Source of the DNA: Planctomycetota bacterium
GTDB lineage: Bacteria > Planctomycetota > UBA1135
DNA length: 64,000 bases
Direction of reading: 5' to 3'
NCBI GenBank assembly: GCA_030749235.1
Contig: JASMKM010000078.1
Span: 1 to 64,000 of the forward strand
How positions within the stretch are numbered: position 1 is the first letter of the stretch; every line of letters begins with the position of its first letter. The notes beneath the pieces were generated by a model. That model did no database searches. It saw only the letters and a program-made list of their open reading frames with translations, and was not told where the DNA came from. Below are positions 25,567 through 36,823 of this stretch, in pieces. A program made the translations under genes and the position numbers.

Positions 25567-25570
<4 letters not shown>

Positions 25571-27636
25571 CCGTAAACCTCCTGAAGATCCGACAGGATG
25601 GTCAAGGCATCGCAACCTAAGCCGATGAAGCCGTCCAAGCCGGCTTGTTGCCAGGTACTGTCGGTGGGCACATCAGGTGGTCGCCCGGCAAGGAGCATCT
25701 TCTTGACCCCAGCCTTTTTGTAGTCTTCCAGATAGGAGACTTCCATCTTGGCGTAGGCCTGATCGTTGCCGCAGACACAAAGGATCTTGGCACCGGATTC
25801 ACGGAGATCCTCGAGCGAGGAACCGACGATGCATTCGAAGCCACCAACGCGAAAGAACTGCTGGGCGTAGGACAGGCGTGCTGCATATTCGGCGGTACTT
25901 CCTAAGGTGGCGAGGAAGACAATCGGCTTGAGACCGGCGACACGCAATTCCATGGCACGTGCTTGCATGCCCTCGAAACCTGCGGCATCGCGCATCTGCG
26001 GCAATGGGTCAGCCTTGGGGCCGTCACAGGAGTTGCCGGAGAGATCGCCTAGCGCCTCGGTCAAGGCGAAGACGTCGGCGCCATCTTCGCAGGCAGCGAT
26101 GATCTCCTCAAAACCACCGGCGACGGTCAGGGCGCAGCACTGGTTCTCTGGATCCCTGGTCTGAATCCATTCACGTACACCTTCCTCATCGCGTTGGGTC
26201 AGATAGGGTTCGCCCTCCTCAACGACAGCATCCACCAAGGGGTAGGAACTCACGCCGGAGATCAGTAGCTTGCGTTTGCGCACCGCGGCTTCGGTGTTGA
26301 TCCGGTCCTGGGCTAAGCGATCATGGATCCAGCCGGTGGTCAACACGTTGGGCATGCCGCCATTGGCCTGGATGCCTTGAAAGATCGCCCAAGCCTCGCT
26401 GGCCAAGGACTCGGTCAAGGATTCGATCAGGTAGGAACCTCCGCCGGCATCAACCACTTGATCGAGGCGACTTTCCTCACTGAGGATGTTCTGCGTATTG
26501 CGCGCCACGCGACGCCCCAAGGTGGACGGTTGTCCCAAGGCTTCGTCGTAGGCATAGGTGGTAATCATGTCAGCGCCACCGAGTACTGCAGCCAAGGTTT
26601 GGGTGGTGCCACGTAACTGGTTGGTCCATGCGTCGGCACGCGCCAAGGTGCGTCGCGAGTTGACACCATGGATCCATGGTGCCGGCATTTCATCCTCGCT
26701 AAAGCCGCAGGCCTGCAGGACGCGCGCCCAGATTAGGCGTGCCGCGCGCAAACTCGCGATCCCGGGGAACAGTTCACGCCCTGGCACAAGGCGCAGCCCC
26801 ATCCCGGCGGCGAGATCCTCGAATGGAATGTCGAGGCGTTCGCCCAAGCTCAGGTAATGGCTCATCGTCGCAGCCATAATGCCGAGTTGTTGTGGCAGGG
26901 TGGCACCGGCCATGTGATAGACCTCGGTGCTGACCAACATCGGCCGGGTATGCGGCATATGTTCCTTGGTCCAGGCGACTGCAGTACCAATCTGGTGCAT
27001 CATGCAGCGCGACCCCAACGGCAGGAAGCCATCGCGCGCTAGGTTGCCGAGCGGATCCAACCCCAGGTTCCAACGCGCCTTCGAGATGTCCTCGCCCCGC
27101 TCACCCGCCAAGGCGACCAAACCGGCAAAGTTGCACAAACTGTTGGCACCGGCATCGAGGGCCAAGTCAATCATGTCGAGACGGATGTCGGCCATCAGTG
27201 CGCGCCAGCCTGCCAAGGACCAGACAATGCAGCCTCCATCGCCCCAAGCCTCGGAGCCGTTGGGTGAATCCGGCGCCAGACCAAGACGGGCACAGGCGTC
27301 AAGTTGCAGCCACATGCCATGACTGCCGCCTTCGAGGTCCTTCAGGGCAGCCTTGCGTACCTCCTCGGCATGAGGAATGTCGTAGCGCGGCGCATTGCTC
27401 CAGCTGGCAGTGTCCCGGCTGCCACGCAAGAAGGGTGGCTTCGCGGGTTGGCTAGGCTCCGGAGCTGGACTATTACCTGCTCCATAGACCGGCTCTATCC
27501 TCCCTGCTTCAAAGCTCTTACGAACAACAGCTCGCTCGTAATCAGCACCTTGAAGCTCCTTTTCAACCTGAGCACGCCAAGTCTCTAGATCGATCTGAGG
27601 AGGAGTCGAGGAGGTGAGCTTGGGGGCGGAATCCAT
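25567..27636 (-). CDS. mutA: Methylmalonyl-CoA mutase, small subunit
   Basis: This 689-residue paralogue of the large subunit retains the barrel and the Rossmann-like half ([20 protein letters not shown]) but lacks the DxHxxG cobalt ligand, as is normal for MutA. It forms the heterodimer with the catalytic subunit. It is the first gene of a five-gene operon with 4-base overlaps throughout. The divergent sensor-kinase gene begins about 108 bases away. The start at 27636 ([20 protein letters not shown]) looks right. Confidence 0.93.
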
Positions 27637-27744
27637 GGGAACAGGACGGGGAAGCAGGCTCTGATTCTACCTTCGCCACGCTTTGCGAAGAATCGGATAA
27701 ATTCCTCCTCCGACCATATTTGGGCCTTCAGCAGCACCCCTCAG

Positions 27745-29619
27745 GTGGCCGAAAAAGCACATGAGCCCTCAGTATTGGGGGTATCAAGCTGCCGCCGAAT
27801 TGTGATTGCATTCCTCAAGGATTTGTTGCGCCCCCCAACGAAATTAGGGGGCACTTGCACCGTTGGCCTGACCAAGTACCGAGTCGTGACCGGCATGGCC
27901 ATTGCCATGACCGGGGTTGCCTTGTTCTACATGGTGTTGGATTTTCGCGACGAAGGCCCGAGCGGTTTCTCGTTGGCGATGTCCGGCGTCATCGGCCTGG
28001 CTCTCTGCATCCGTTCCATGCTGCGCCAAGGACGTTCGGTCGAGTCCATCGGACAAGTCACCACCGTCGGCCTGTTCATGGCGGCGACCTTCGTCACCCT
28101 GCATAGCGGTGGTGGCGAGGCGACCTCGATTGGTTGGTATGCGATGCTGCCTCTGAGTGCAGCCCTGTTGTGTGGTTATCGCGCCGGCATGGCTTGGGCC
28201 GTCGTCAGCCTCACCTCGCTGCTGATCATTGGTCAACTGGCGAACCTCGGGATTGAGATTCCCGATGCCTTGCCGAAGACCAGTCGTAATCTCTATCGCC
28301 TGTTCGAGAACCTATTACTGCTCGCTGGTGTGGCCTATCTGGTAACCGGTTTCATCGCCGAACACAAGCGCGCCCAGGATGAACTGGAGATGACCAACCG
28401 CATGCTCGACGAGGAGCGTAACGCACGCACTCAGGCAGACAAGCGAGTCAACCAGACCTTGCAGATTCAGAACCAGATTCTTGCCAAGGTCGGCAGCGAA
28501 ATGCGTACTCCGCTGAACGGCATCAAGGGCATGACTCGCATGCTGAACAGCACCAATCTTGACCAAGTCCAGAAGGACTACGCCGTAGCCATCCAGTCCT
28601 CCGGCCGTGCCTTGCTGGAATTGCTCGAGGACGTGCTCGACTTCTCACGGATCGAATCCGGTGAGCTGCAGCTGGATTACAAGCCCTTCGACATCGAAGT
28701 GGCCGTCGCCGGCGTCGCCAAGCACTTGTCGACCATTGCCGAGGTCAAGAACCTCGAAGTCCTGCTGCGCTTCGCCCCCGATACTCCGCGCTTCTACACC
28801 GGCGATGCTGGACGGATTCAGCAGGTGCTAGGCAGCCTGGTCAAAAACGGCGTCAAGCATGCCACCGACGGCCATGTGCTAATCGACGTCGAAGAGACCG
28901 ATCGTGACGGGAATGATTCCATTCTGCGCTTCCATGTCCGCAACTCCGGCGTCTCGCTGGATAAGGGCGAATGCAAGGCCTTGCGCCAAATGCTTGCCAA
29001 CCAAGATGAGGATGGTTCCTCCTCCGAATCCGACAGCGGCTTCGGCCTTGCCCTCAGTCAGCGCATCGTGCGCCTGATGGGTGGCGACATGGGCTTCGAT
29101 GGCGACGGCGAAGAGGCTGACTTCTGGTTCTCGCTGACGCTGCCGCGCTCACGTGAACCAAAGGTACAGAACCTGTTCTCCGGCAACCTTGCCGGCCTGA
29201 AGGCCTTGGTGGTCGAGGACAACGCACGCAACCGCGAGATTCTGGTCGAGCAGTTGATGAGCTGGGGAATACAACCGGTACTTGCTTCCTCTGGACAGAA
29301 AGCCTTGCAGATGATGCACGTCGACCAGGATTCCAATTGCCCATACGATTTAGCGATTATCGATCACCAGTTGGAGGACATTGACGGCAAGCGTCTCGGC
29401 ATGATGATGCAATCCGATTCGGTACTCGAAGAGTGCTGCATGGTCCTGCTCACTTCCGACGCCGGAGCTGGCCGCGGTCGTGAATACCGCACGGCTGGTT
29501 TCTCCGCCTACCTCGCCAAGCCGGTCACGCCAAGCATCCTGCGCGACACTCTGGCGATGGCTTGGGGGCTGGATCGCGAGACCAAGGTTGCACAAGCTGC
29601 AAACCAACGCGATTCCTGA
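27745..29619 (+). CDS. Degenerate hybrid sensor histidine kinase with intact receiver domain
   Basis: This protein of 624 residues starts at a GTG; a start near residue 20 (another GTG) is possible. Residues 45-210 contain about six hydrophobic spans (a membrane sensor), then a short coiled coil to about 240. The HisKA-like region reads ILAKVGSEMRTPLNG, where the usual phosphoacceptor His is Ser251. The ATPase domain keeps an N-box-like KNGVKHAT and a G2-like DSGFGLALS, but the G1 box DxGxG is NSGVS. The C-terminal receiver keeps VVEDN, the phosphoacceptor position Asp540 (IIDHQLEDIDG), a Ser/Thr switch and Lys in AYLAKPV. It probably receives or relays phosphate from another kinase, or acts without phosphorylation. 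Confidence 0.88.
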   Translation: MAEKAHEPSVLGVSSCRRIVIAFLKDLLRPPTKLGGTCTVGLTKYRVVTGMAIAMTGVALFYMVLDFRDEGPSGFSLAMSGVIGLALCIRSMLRQGRSVESIGQVTTVGLFMAATFVTLHSGGGEATSIGWYAMLPLSAALLCGYRAGMAWAVVSLTSLLIIGQLANLGIEIPDALPKTSRNLYRLFENLLLLAGVAYLVTGFIAEHKRAQDELEMTNRMLDEERNARTQADKRVNQTLQIQNQILAKVGSEMRTPLNGIKGMTRMLNSTNLDQVQKDYAVAIQSSGRALLELLEDVLDFSRIESGELQLDYKPFDIEVAVAGVAKHLSTIAEVKNLEVLLRFAPDTPRFYTGDAGRIQQVLGSLVKNGVKHATDGHVLIDVEETDRDGNDSILRFHVRNSGVSLDKGECKALRQMLANQDEDGSSSESDSGFGLALSQRIVRLMGGDMGFDGDGEEADFWFSLTLPRSREPKVQNLFSGNLAGLKALVVEDNARNREILVEQLMSWGIQPVLASSGQKALQMMHVDQDSNCPYDLAIIDHQLEDIDGKRLGMMMQSDSVLEECCMVLLTSDAGAGRGREYRTAGFSAYLAKPVTPSILRDTLAMAWGLDRETKVAQAANQRDS

Positions 29620-29629
29620 TTCCCAGAGC

Positions 29630-30511
29630 TCAGTCCGCCAACAAGGCTGTCACCGCCTCGACGAAGCTGGCGACGGCTTCCACATGCACATGGTGGCTGA
29701 TCCCCGGTAAGTTCTGGCGCGTGGCATGCGGCAACTGTTCGAAGCGCTCCTGCAGAGCAGGGATGCGGTGAATATAACCAAACTCCGGCGCCAACAAGTG
29801 CACCCTTGCCGTCACCCGGCTGCAGATTTCGAGCCAATGGTGCTCCGGAAAGCGATAAGGGTTAGGGCCACGCAGGCGCGGGTCCAAACGCACCGTGAAA
29901 CGACCGTCCTCCTGTTCGTCGAGGTAGTGACGCACGATGCGCTCCGCCCCGGCCTGACTTAGACCATCGTTGTTGGCCATCACCCTCTCGATTGCGGACT
30001 CGCGCGAGGCGAAACTGCGAAAGGGCCGCGTCGGTCGACGCGCATGTTCCAATAAAGCCGTCATCTGGTCGACCTGGGTGCTGGAATCGGCAGCATAACC
30101 GCCGACGCAATCGACCAGCATCAGGCGCTGGATCATGGCCGGAGCAAAACTCGCCAACATCAAGGCCACTGTCCCTCCCATCGAATGGGCGACGACGGCG
30201 GCGACCTCGATGCCGTCGGCCTGAAGCTCATCGAGCACCGCAGCCAGATCCTTTAAGTGGTCGAGCTGATGGTAGGCCGCATCGGTGTGGATACGACCGC
30301 TGGAGCCATGACCGCGCCAATCCAAGCACAGCGGTCTACAGATACCTTCAGCGACCAAGGCACGCGCGGCATCCTCGAAGCTGCGTCCGGTATCCAGGAA
30401 GCCATGCAAGAACAACACCGCTGGCCCGCTGCCGCCGTAATCCCACAGGGCCAACGGCAGACGCTCACGATTGACGGTGCGTGGCTCTGGCTGAATCGGT
30501 GAAGTCTGCAT
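29630..30511 (-). CDS. Alpha/beta hydrolase
   Basis: This protein of 293 residues starts at MQTSPIQPEP; the track start adds 12 residues overlapping an inverted repeat. It has the oxyanion motif LFLHGFLDTGRSF, LDWRGHGSSG, the nucleophile elbow AHSMGGTVALML (Ser) and a late His in GISHHVHVE. It belongs to the broad family of esterases, lactonases and haloalkane-dehalogenase-like hydrolases with a helical lid around residues 150-210. The substrate is unknown. It lies convergent with the kinase gene. Confidence 0.82.
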   Translation of the reverse strand: MQTSPIQPEPRTVNRERLPLALWDYGGSGPAVLFLHGFLDTGRSFEDAARALVAEGICRPLCLDWRGHGSSGRIHTDAAYHQLDHLKDLAAVLDELQADGIEVAAVVAHSMGGTVALMLASFAPAMIQRLMLVDCVGGYAADSSTQVDQMTALLEHARRPTRPFRSFASRESAIERVMANNDGLSQAGAERIVRHYLDEQEDGRFTVRLDPRLRGPNPYRFPEHHWLEICSRVTARVHLLAPEFGYIHRIPALQERFEQLPHATRQNLPGISHHVHVEAVASFVEAVTALLAD

Positions 30512-30534
30512 GAAAAGAGGCGACGAACAATCGA

Positions 30535-30564
30535 CCCACGCATGCACCCTTCGGGTTGCGTGGG
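30535..30564. terminator. Stable inverted repeat, possible terminator
   Basis: CCCACGCA (30535-30542) pairs with TGCGTGGG (30557-30564), with an inner ACCC-TTC-GGGT hairpin. On the plus strand it is followed by tttggtt; on the minus strand, the strand of both flanking genes, there is no long U-run. It lies between the ALDH stop and the alpha/beta-hydrolase start. It could end ALDH transcripts or stabilise their 3' ends. Confidence 0.45.
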
Positions 30565-35677: not shown

Positions 35678-36169
35678 ATGAAACGAACCTCCCAATCAGG
35701 CTTTACGATCATCGAAATGTTAATCGTGGTCACGATTTTGGCCATGCTTGCCGGAATCCTATTGCCAGTACTCGAAGACGCAGCGATGTCTTCCCGCGAT
35801 GCTCGTCGTTCTTCTGACCTGAAGAGCATGCAGGCCGCATTGGAAAGCTATAAGCGCGTCAACGGCACCTACCCAGACACTGGTGGTGCTTTTCAAGGCG
35901 ATGCCCCGACTTATGGTGGCTTGCTCTACGATGCCACTGGCTACTGCCCAGGCCTAGTACCTGACTACCTTCCTGCGCTGCCGAAAGATCCAAGCCCGGA
36001 TATCCCGAACGCGACCACCGGTGGTTACATGTACCGCTCCGATGGTGTCGACTACAAGTTCGTCTGTAACGAAGGACCTGAGACTTACCCAGCAGGCAAC
36101 CCCTTCTACGATCCTACCCGACCTGCAACCGCATGGCAGATCAGCTCGCCAGGGGGCTACAACTGGTAG
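35678..36169 (+). CDS. Type II secretion/type IV pilus-like pseudopilin (GspG-like), copy 1
   Basis: This 163-residue protein has the prepilin peptidase site SQSGFTIIEML, with Gly/Phe cleavage and Glu5 of the mature protein, followed by the hydrophobic helix VVTILAMLAGILLPVL. The C-terminal half is Tyr/Pro/Gly-rich (YMYRSDGVDYKF), as in major pseudopilins, and ends SSPGGYNW. A paralogue follows after a terminator. No other secretion gene is in the window, so it probably assembles with machinery encoded elsewhere. Confidence 0.88.
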   Translation: MKRTSQSGFTIIEMLIVVTILAMLAGILLPVLEDAAMSSRDARRSSDLKSMQAALESYKRVNGTYPDTGGAFQGDAPTYGGLLYDATGYCPGLVPDYLPALPKDPSPDIPNATTGGYMYRSDGVDYKFVCNEGPETYPAGNPFYDPTRPATAWQISSPGGYNW

Positions 36170-36304: not shown

Positions 36305-36823
36305 ATGATGAAGATGAGGCTCACCTATCCATATCAGCTGTCAGCACGCCATGGCTTCACCATCCTAGAGATGCTGATCGTGGTCACGATTCTGGCGCTT
36401 CTGGCTGGCATTCTGGCTCCAATCCTCGCTGACGAAGCGGAGAATGCTCGAGACGGCCGACGTGCCGCGGACTTGCGTTCCATCGCCTCCACCCTGGCAC
36501 ACTACAAACAGGTGACAGGCGGTTATCCATCTACCGGGGGAGCCTGGCAGGGTGATGCCAGCATATATGGTGGTTTTGGTTACGGTGTCGGTGGGTACAT
36601 CCCGGATTTAGTTCCGGACTATCTGCCCTTCCTGCCGAAGGATCCGAACCCGATTTACCCGACCGTAGGGACCGGTGGCTACATGTACCGCTCTGACGGC
36701 ATCGACTACAAGTTCGTGCTGAACGATACGCCCTCGGAATACTACGTCAGTAACCCCTTCTACGATCCCACGCGCCCGCTGACGGGCTGGCAGGTGTCGT
36801 CGCCGGGTGGCTACAACTGGTAG
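36305..36823 (+). CDS. Pseudopilin (GspG-like), copy 2
   Basis: This 172-residue paralogue of the upstream protein has the cleavage site ARHGFTILEML and the same helix and C-terminal layout (YMYRSDGIDYKFV, end SSPGGYNW). Its leader is longer (MMKMRLTYPYQLSARHG). The stretch between the helix and C-terminus is shared (GGAWQGDASIYGG versus GGAFQGDAPTYGG), showing a tandem duplication. It is separated from copy 1 by a strong terminator, so the two can be expressed at different levels. Confidence 0.88.
   Translation: MMKMRLTYPYQLSARHGFTILEMLIVVTILALLAGILAPILADEAENARDGRRAADLRSIASTLAHYKQVTGGYPSTGGAWQGDASIYGGFGYGVGGYIPDLVPDYLPFLPKDPNPIYPTVGTGGYMYRSDGIDYKFVLNDTPSEYYVSNPFYDPTRPLTGWQVSSPGGYNW

Follow-up and report, generated by a model that had tools for sequence, protein, structure and literature searches.

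A His-less hybrid pseudo-histidine kinase with an intact receiver in a clade of Planctomycetota

We describe a hybrid histidine kinase homologue from a Planctomycetota bacterium that has Ser in place of the phosphoacceptor His and a degenerate ATP site, but has kept the active site of its receiver. The gene lies in the window, by which we mean the whole stretch of 64,000 nucleotides that was analysed (contig JASMKM010000078.1, assembly GCA_030749235.1). We suggest that its product is a membrane-anchored hybrid pseudo-histidine kinase that acts in a RetS-like manner, as a phosphate-accepting or hetero-complex modulator, and we give this reading about an even chance. Few HisKA proteins that lack the His are understood, and they make up about 0.9% of HisKA domains in a published survey (PMC12632262). 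The six to seven orthologues reported here are a natural series in which the ATP-binding segment has escaped selection while the DHp domain and the receiver stayed fixed; C121, an active kinase of the same genomes, serves as the matched control. The role of a hybrid kinase that is no longer able to phosphorylate can be tested here with a small set of candidates, since the window's genome has one canonical hybrid kinase of this type and one Hpt protein.

Gene and domain architecture

The first-pass annotation placed the gene at 27745-29619. The reading frame is real, but translation probably begins at the GTG at 27802, since the orthologues align from there on, with VIAFLxDLxRPP. Ser251 would then become residue 232; the numbers below are those of the longer frame. 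The features of the locus are as follows.

27745-29619, forward strand: open reading frame of the first-pass annotation, 624 residues by translation.
27802-29619, forward strand: probable true extent of the coding sequence for the His-less hybrid pseudo-histidine kinase, with GTG at the conserved VIAFL and the N-terminus kept across six orthologues.
27877-28371, forward strand: N-terminal membrane domain, residues 45-209, with four hydrophobic segments (Kyte-Doolittle) and sub-threshold similarity to MASE6/MASE11.
28463-28674, forward strand: DHp/HisKA domain without the phosphoacceptor His (Pfam HisKA match plus flank).
28495-28497, forward strand: Ser251 codon AGC at the phosphoacceptor position.
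28507-28509, forward strand: Thr255, the H+4 residue (HxxxT phosphatase position).
28801-29145, forward strand: degenerate HATPase_c (CA) domain (Pfam match), with Ser364 for the first N-box Asn, G1 NSGVS, and G2 SGFGLAL kept.
28942-29037, forward strand: G1 box and ATP lid, residues 400-431 (Asn400 at 28942), singled out by identity between orthologues.
29206-29550, forward strand: C-terminal receiver with an intact active site (Pfam match), comprising Glu491, Asp492, Asp540 (29362), Thr570 and Lys592.

The order in the protein is thus membrane domain, HisKA, HATPase_c and receiver. The Pfam matches to HisKA (residues 242-306, E 4e-15, 55.9 bits), HATPase_c (residues 353-466, E 7e-14) and Response_reg (residues 488-602, E 1e-11) each exceed the gathering cut-offs. 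An AlphaFold model with two orthologues in the input was unusable (pLDDT 35, pTM 0.23).

Loss of the phosphoacceptor and of the ATP site

The H-box is readable in six orthologues and is ILAKVGSEMR[T/V]PL in each of them, with the Ser codon AGC or AGT. These six copies come from five species of one genus and one of its sister genus; a seventh copy, in G002, is split by contig ends and is missing the site. All the canonical kinases aligned with the pseudokinase have His at this position. Six of six orthologues have Ser, which excludes a sequencing error as well as a recent mutation. The first-pass annotation, which had named Ser251 as the replacement of the His and proposed an alignment of orthologues as a check, was therefore right on this point and in its residue numbers, and no His-bearing orthologue was found among the six. 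It had also considered that another His in the helix could be phosphorylated. We reject this candidate: no His is conserved in the DHp domain of the six orthologues, and the copies of G000 (the window's genome) and G001 lack any His at residues 231-326.

Loss of the G1 box had also been proposed, from NSGVS. This stands, but the damage is wider. Across the six orthologues G1 reads NSGVS, NSGVA, GAGQN, GSGQN, GSGQN and DWNHE. All six have Ser or Ala for the first N-box Asn, four have lost the N-box Lys, and the ATP lid is scrambled. What is kept is the second N-box Asn together with the GFG of G2. The control C121, named after its contig in G000, is a canonical hybrid kinase in the same six genomes with the His, an intact DTGCGI and two receivers. 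Mean identity over G1 and the ATP lid is 28-29% for the pseudokinase versus 88% for C121, but the DHp domains are equally conserved (83% versus 86% mean pairwise identity). The values are 74% versus 65% for the CA domain up to G1 and 73% versus 80% for G2 with the remainder of CA. Residues 400-431 are the least conserved stretch from the coiled coil to the C-terminus, compared with 73% identity over residues 242-620. These domain-wise identities indicate that the nucleotide-binding lid is out of selection, with the other domains still under it. The loss of autokinase activity is expected because the His, G1 and the lid are all lost, and the protein is almost certainly kinase-dead. On established chemistry autophosphorylation would be excluded, unless a residue that is not conserved serves instead.

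Conservation of the receiver and the membrane domain

The acidic pocket (Glu491/Asp492), Asp540 and Lys592 had already been recognised in the receiver, and they are present together with Thr570; all five residues are invariant in seven of seven orthologues. The receiver thus has the acidic pair, the Asp, the Thr/Ser and the Lys of a true receiver. Its identity between orthologues is 81%, versus 67 and 66% for the two receivers of C121, and its dN/dS is 0.074 between G000 and G001. The receiver probably becomes phosphorylated. The broader proposal that kinase function was lost and the receiver retained is backed by the orthologues, by selection and by motif conservation. The pattern suggests that selection guards the DHp surface, the receiver active site and the membrane domain.

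Distribution and origin

A search of 26 genomes of the family (E <= 1e-75) found the pseudokinase in seven, namely all six of one genus (G000-G005) and one of the sister genus (G006). Beyond this clade no orthologue was found in 154 genomes of the order (E <= 1e-68) or 392 of the phylum (E <= 1e-75); five other matches from these searches, at 34-37% identity, are all canonical, with His and DxGxG. Whole-gene dN/dS between G000 and G001 is 0.054, where this and the domain values are rough Nei-Gojobori estimates with dS near 1. By its substitution pattern the pseudokinase is a maintained protein under strong purifying selection and not a decaying one.

The six full-length sequences form one clade with support of 100/100 on a stem of 2.4 changes per site, and because of this long stem the exact parent is uncertain. 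The nearest branch is another canonical group (G016_C166, G013_C172, G007_C44), at a sub-threshold support of 94/77. C121 was considered as the parent, but the tree does not group the clade with it. The membrane domains of the two proteins are homologous (hhalign probability 96.3, E 1.5e-9), with sub-threshold MASE matches in both. Given the tree, we claim only this membrane-domain homology.

G006 encodes another His-less hybrid kinase, outside the pseudokinase clade (L094:4616-7039, forward strand). Its H-box, SSISQEIRTPM, has Gln for the His and its DTGSGI is intact, so that it has an ATP site without the His. It carries a MASE3 domain and two receivers, and lies directly downstream of a canonical paralogue (L094:1794-4493).

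The genes that flank the pseudokinase in the window are as follows.

25567-27636, reverse strand: mutA-like methylmalonyl-CoA mutase small subunit, the divergent neighbour, used in the empty-site comparison.
29630-30547, reverse strand: alpha/beta hydrolase, the convergent neighbour, which adjoins mutA in genera without the pseudokinase.

The pseudokinase is syntenic in the seven genomes. Wherever the contigs reach, mutB-mutA is on one side, and the hydrolase and an ALDH of the L-piperidine-6-carboxylate dehydrogenase type are on the other, with additional genes between these two in some genomes. In G022 and G014, which are without the pseudokinase, ALDH, hydrolase and mutA lie head to tail with a hydrolase-mutA gap of about 19-58 bp. 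The empty site is seen when window positions 27636-29630, where the divergent pseudokinase gene stands between hydrolase and mutA, are compared with L129 and L122. Most likely, the ancestor shared by both genera already had this operon and acquired the pseudokinase gene within it, on the opposite strand. Such an insertion into an older operon argues for a single origin and against deriving a metabolic function from the neighbours. For this reason, and as the protein has no DNA-binding output, we do not claim a link to methylmalonyl-CoA metabolism.

Several other features of the region were observed. A sigma-70-family (ECF-like) factor and a downstream gene adjoin the pseudokinase in G006, are near it in G003 and are absent from the window (L044:7789-9062; L042:14845-16082); the downstream gene of G003 matches FecR. 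Small reading frames between pseudokinase and mutA in G003-G005 (L041:6372-6680; L043:11044-11670) are AhpD-like by eye, without a Pfam match; G000 and G001 lack them. The mutA small subunit changes very rapidly, with 36-45% identity to its more distant orthologues, compared with 75-77% for mutB. Further along the window is a tandem pilin-like pair (35678-36169 and 36305-36823), whose two members have N-terminal methylation motifs and clearly resemble each other in sequence.

Candidate partners and mechanism

In G000, Pfam finds 14 HATPase_c, 15 receiver and one Hpt match. C121 is the only canonical kinase of such a hybrid type at E <= 1e-30 in this genome, which is about 90% complete, so that others may be missing. 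Each of the seven genomes with the pseudokinase has orthologues of both C121 and the Hpt protein. C121, which is older than the pseudokinase, is found in five family members without it as well; its co-occurrence value of 0.0012, obtained by counting, is not a probability, as the seven genomes are one clade. The co-occurrence thus amounts to one evolutionary event and is weak evidence. No operon links the pseudokinase to a partner kinase. The C121-type kinase and the Hpt protein would be the likeliest partners, and the odds that the partner is indeed one of these two seem roughly balanced.

We propose the following mechanism. The protein would be unable to autophosphorylate, with the His absent and the ATP site non-working, but would keep a dimerising DHp scaffold and its receiver. 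Most probably it would pair with a canonical hybrid kinase in its own cell or receive phosphate from it, directly or by way of the one Hpt protein; the C121 type is the candidate. Receiver phosphorylation together with the membrane input would then set how much signal passes to the rest of the phosphorelay, by RetS-like modulation or as a phosphate sink. In the simplest device the receiver would be phosphorylated by another kinase or the Hpt while the DHp domain contacts a kinase, corresponding to RetS mechanisms 1 and 3. The identity of the partner, the receipt of phosphate and the direction of the effect are what we infer here from sequence.

Four other modes of action were weighed. The first, which we consider unlikely, is a DivL-like allosteric scaffold, whose DHp domain would bind a phosphorylated response regulator or another kinase and switch that kinase, with no phosphate passing through the pseudokinase. 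DivL has no attached receiver, and a scaffold would leave unexplained why the five phosphorylation residues of the receiver are invariant while its other positions vary. Yet the DHp domain is nearly frozen, with a dN/dS of 0.006 between G000 and G001, and there is a precedent in DivL itself, which has neither kinase nor phosphatase activity; it works by binding DivK~P and exerts control over CckA (PMC4211667).

A second and less probable possibility is that the Hpt phosphorylates the receiver and that the signal travels in reverse, via the DHp domain, to the membrane domain and from there to a partner in the membrane. The membrane domain is 62% identical between orthologues, versus 37% for C121 in the same genomes, and the Hpt orthologue accompanies the pseudokinase everywhere. 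However, such conservation is equally expected from ligand sensing, and no candidate for a membrane partner emerged. On this reading, with all the catalytic input (His, ATP site and HxxxT Thr) gone, the usual path would run backwards.

That the protein is a kinase-inactive transmitter phosphatase acting on another receiver, a role the first-pass annotation had not named, seems more doubtful still. The conserved His is dispensable for HisKA phosphatase activity (PMC12632262), and the H+4 Thr is retained in G000 and G001. In the other four orthologues (G003, G004, G005 and G006) it is Val, and since RetS requires this Thr for phosphatase activity (PMC5992135), a general phosphatase role is unlikely.

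It is highly improbable that Ser251 is autophosphorylated in place of the His. This chemistry has been proposed for some plant ethylene receptors, which are among the weaker PDB sequence matches, and Ser251 is invariant; but the first N-box Asn, G1 and the lid were lost differently in each orthologue, so that no shared nucleotide chemistry is under selection. A decaying pseudogene or sequence error, which the loss of several catalytic motifs might suggest, is refuted by the low dN/dS (0.05), intact frames, the same Ser in six species and the synteny in seven genomes.

Comparison with known systems

The best NCBIfam matches are TorS/BarA/ArcB-type proteins, all far below cut-off. These canonical hybrid kinases share the HisKA-HATPase_c-REC fold and order, but have the His, G1 DxGxG and ATP lid that the pseudokinase lacks. 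One of the closest sequences in the PDB is RetS of Pseudomonas aeruginosa (6dk7/6dk8, E about 1e-36), likewise a membrane hybrid kinase with a degenerate HATPase, no autophosphorylation and a functional receiver. However, both the phosphoacceptor His and the HExxT Thr are still present in RetS, which carries two receivers (PMC5992135). The pseudokinase shares the degenerate HATPase, but not the His with its HExxT motif, and has a different sensor domain.

DivL of Caulobacter and other alphaproteobacteria, whose structure 4q20 is among the PDB matches, is defined by Tyr, N-terminal PAS sensors and the lack of a receiver, in contrast to the Ser, membrane domain and attached receiver found here. 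The two proteins are alike in that a non-His residue is conserved at the phosphoacceptor position, ATP binding is very poor in DivL, and DivL has a conserved regulatory role (PMC4211667). RcsD of Enterobacteriaceae is also a membrane protein with a His-less kinase-like domain, and partners the canonical hybrid kinase RcsC (PMC3762810), but it has an Hpt domain instead of a receiver, and one report claims autophosphorylation.

CCNA_03265 of Caulobacter crescentus is a hybrid kinase whose HK domain lacks the His and whose receiver Asp is retained; its authors suggested that an Hpt might phosphorylate it or that it might heterodimerise (PMC11481889). It comes from another organism and lineage, and a nearby His, H151, is a candidate there, whereas the pseudokinase has no such conserved His. 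Literature searches turned up no account of a lineage like this one in Planctomycetota, a weak indication of novelty. With a HisKA domain without the His, in a stable lineage under selection, the protein belongs to a known kind, the pseudo-histidine kinases that include RetS, DivL, RcsD and especially CCNA_03265, and by the defining features compared here it is neither a RetS nor a DivL.
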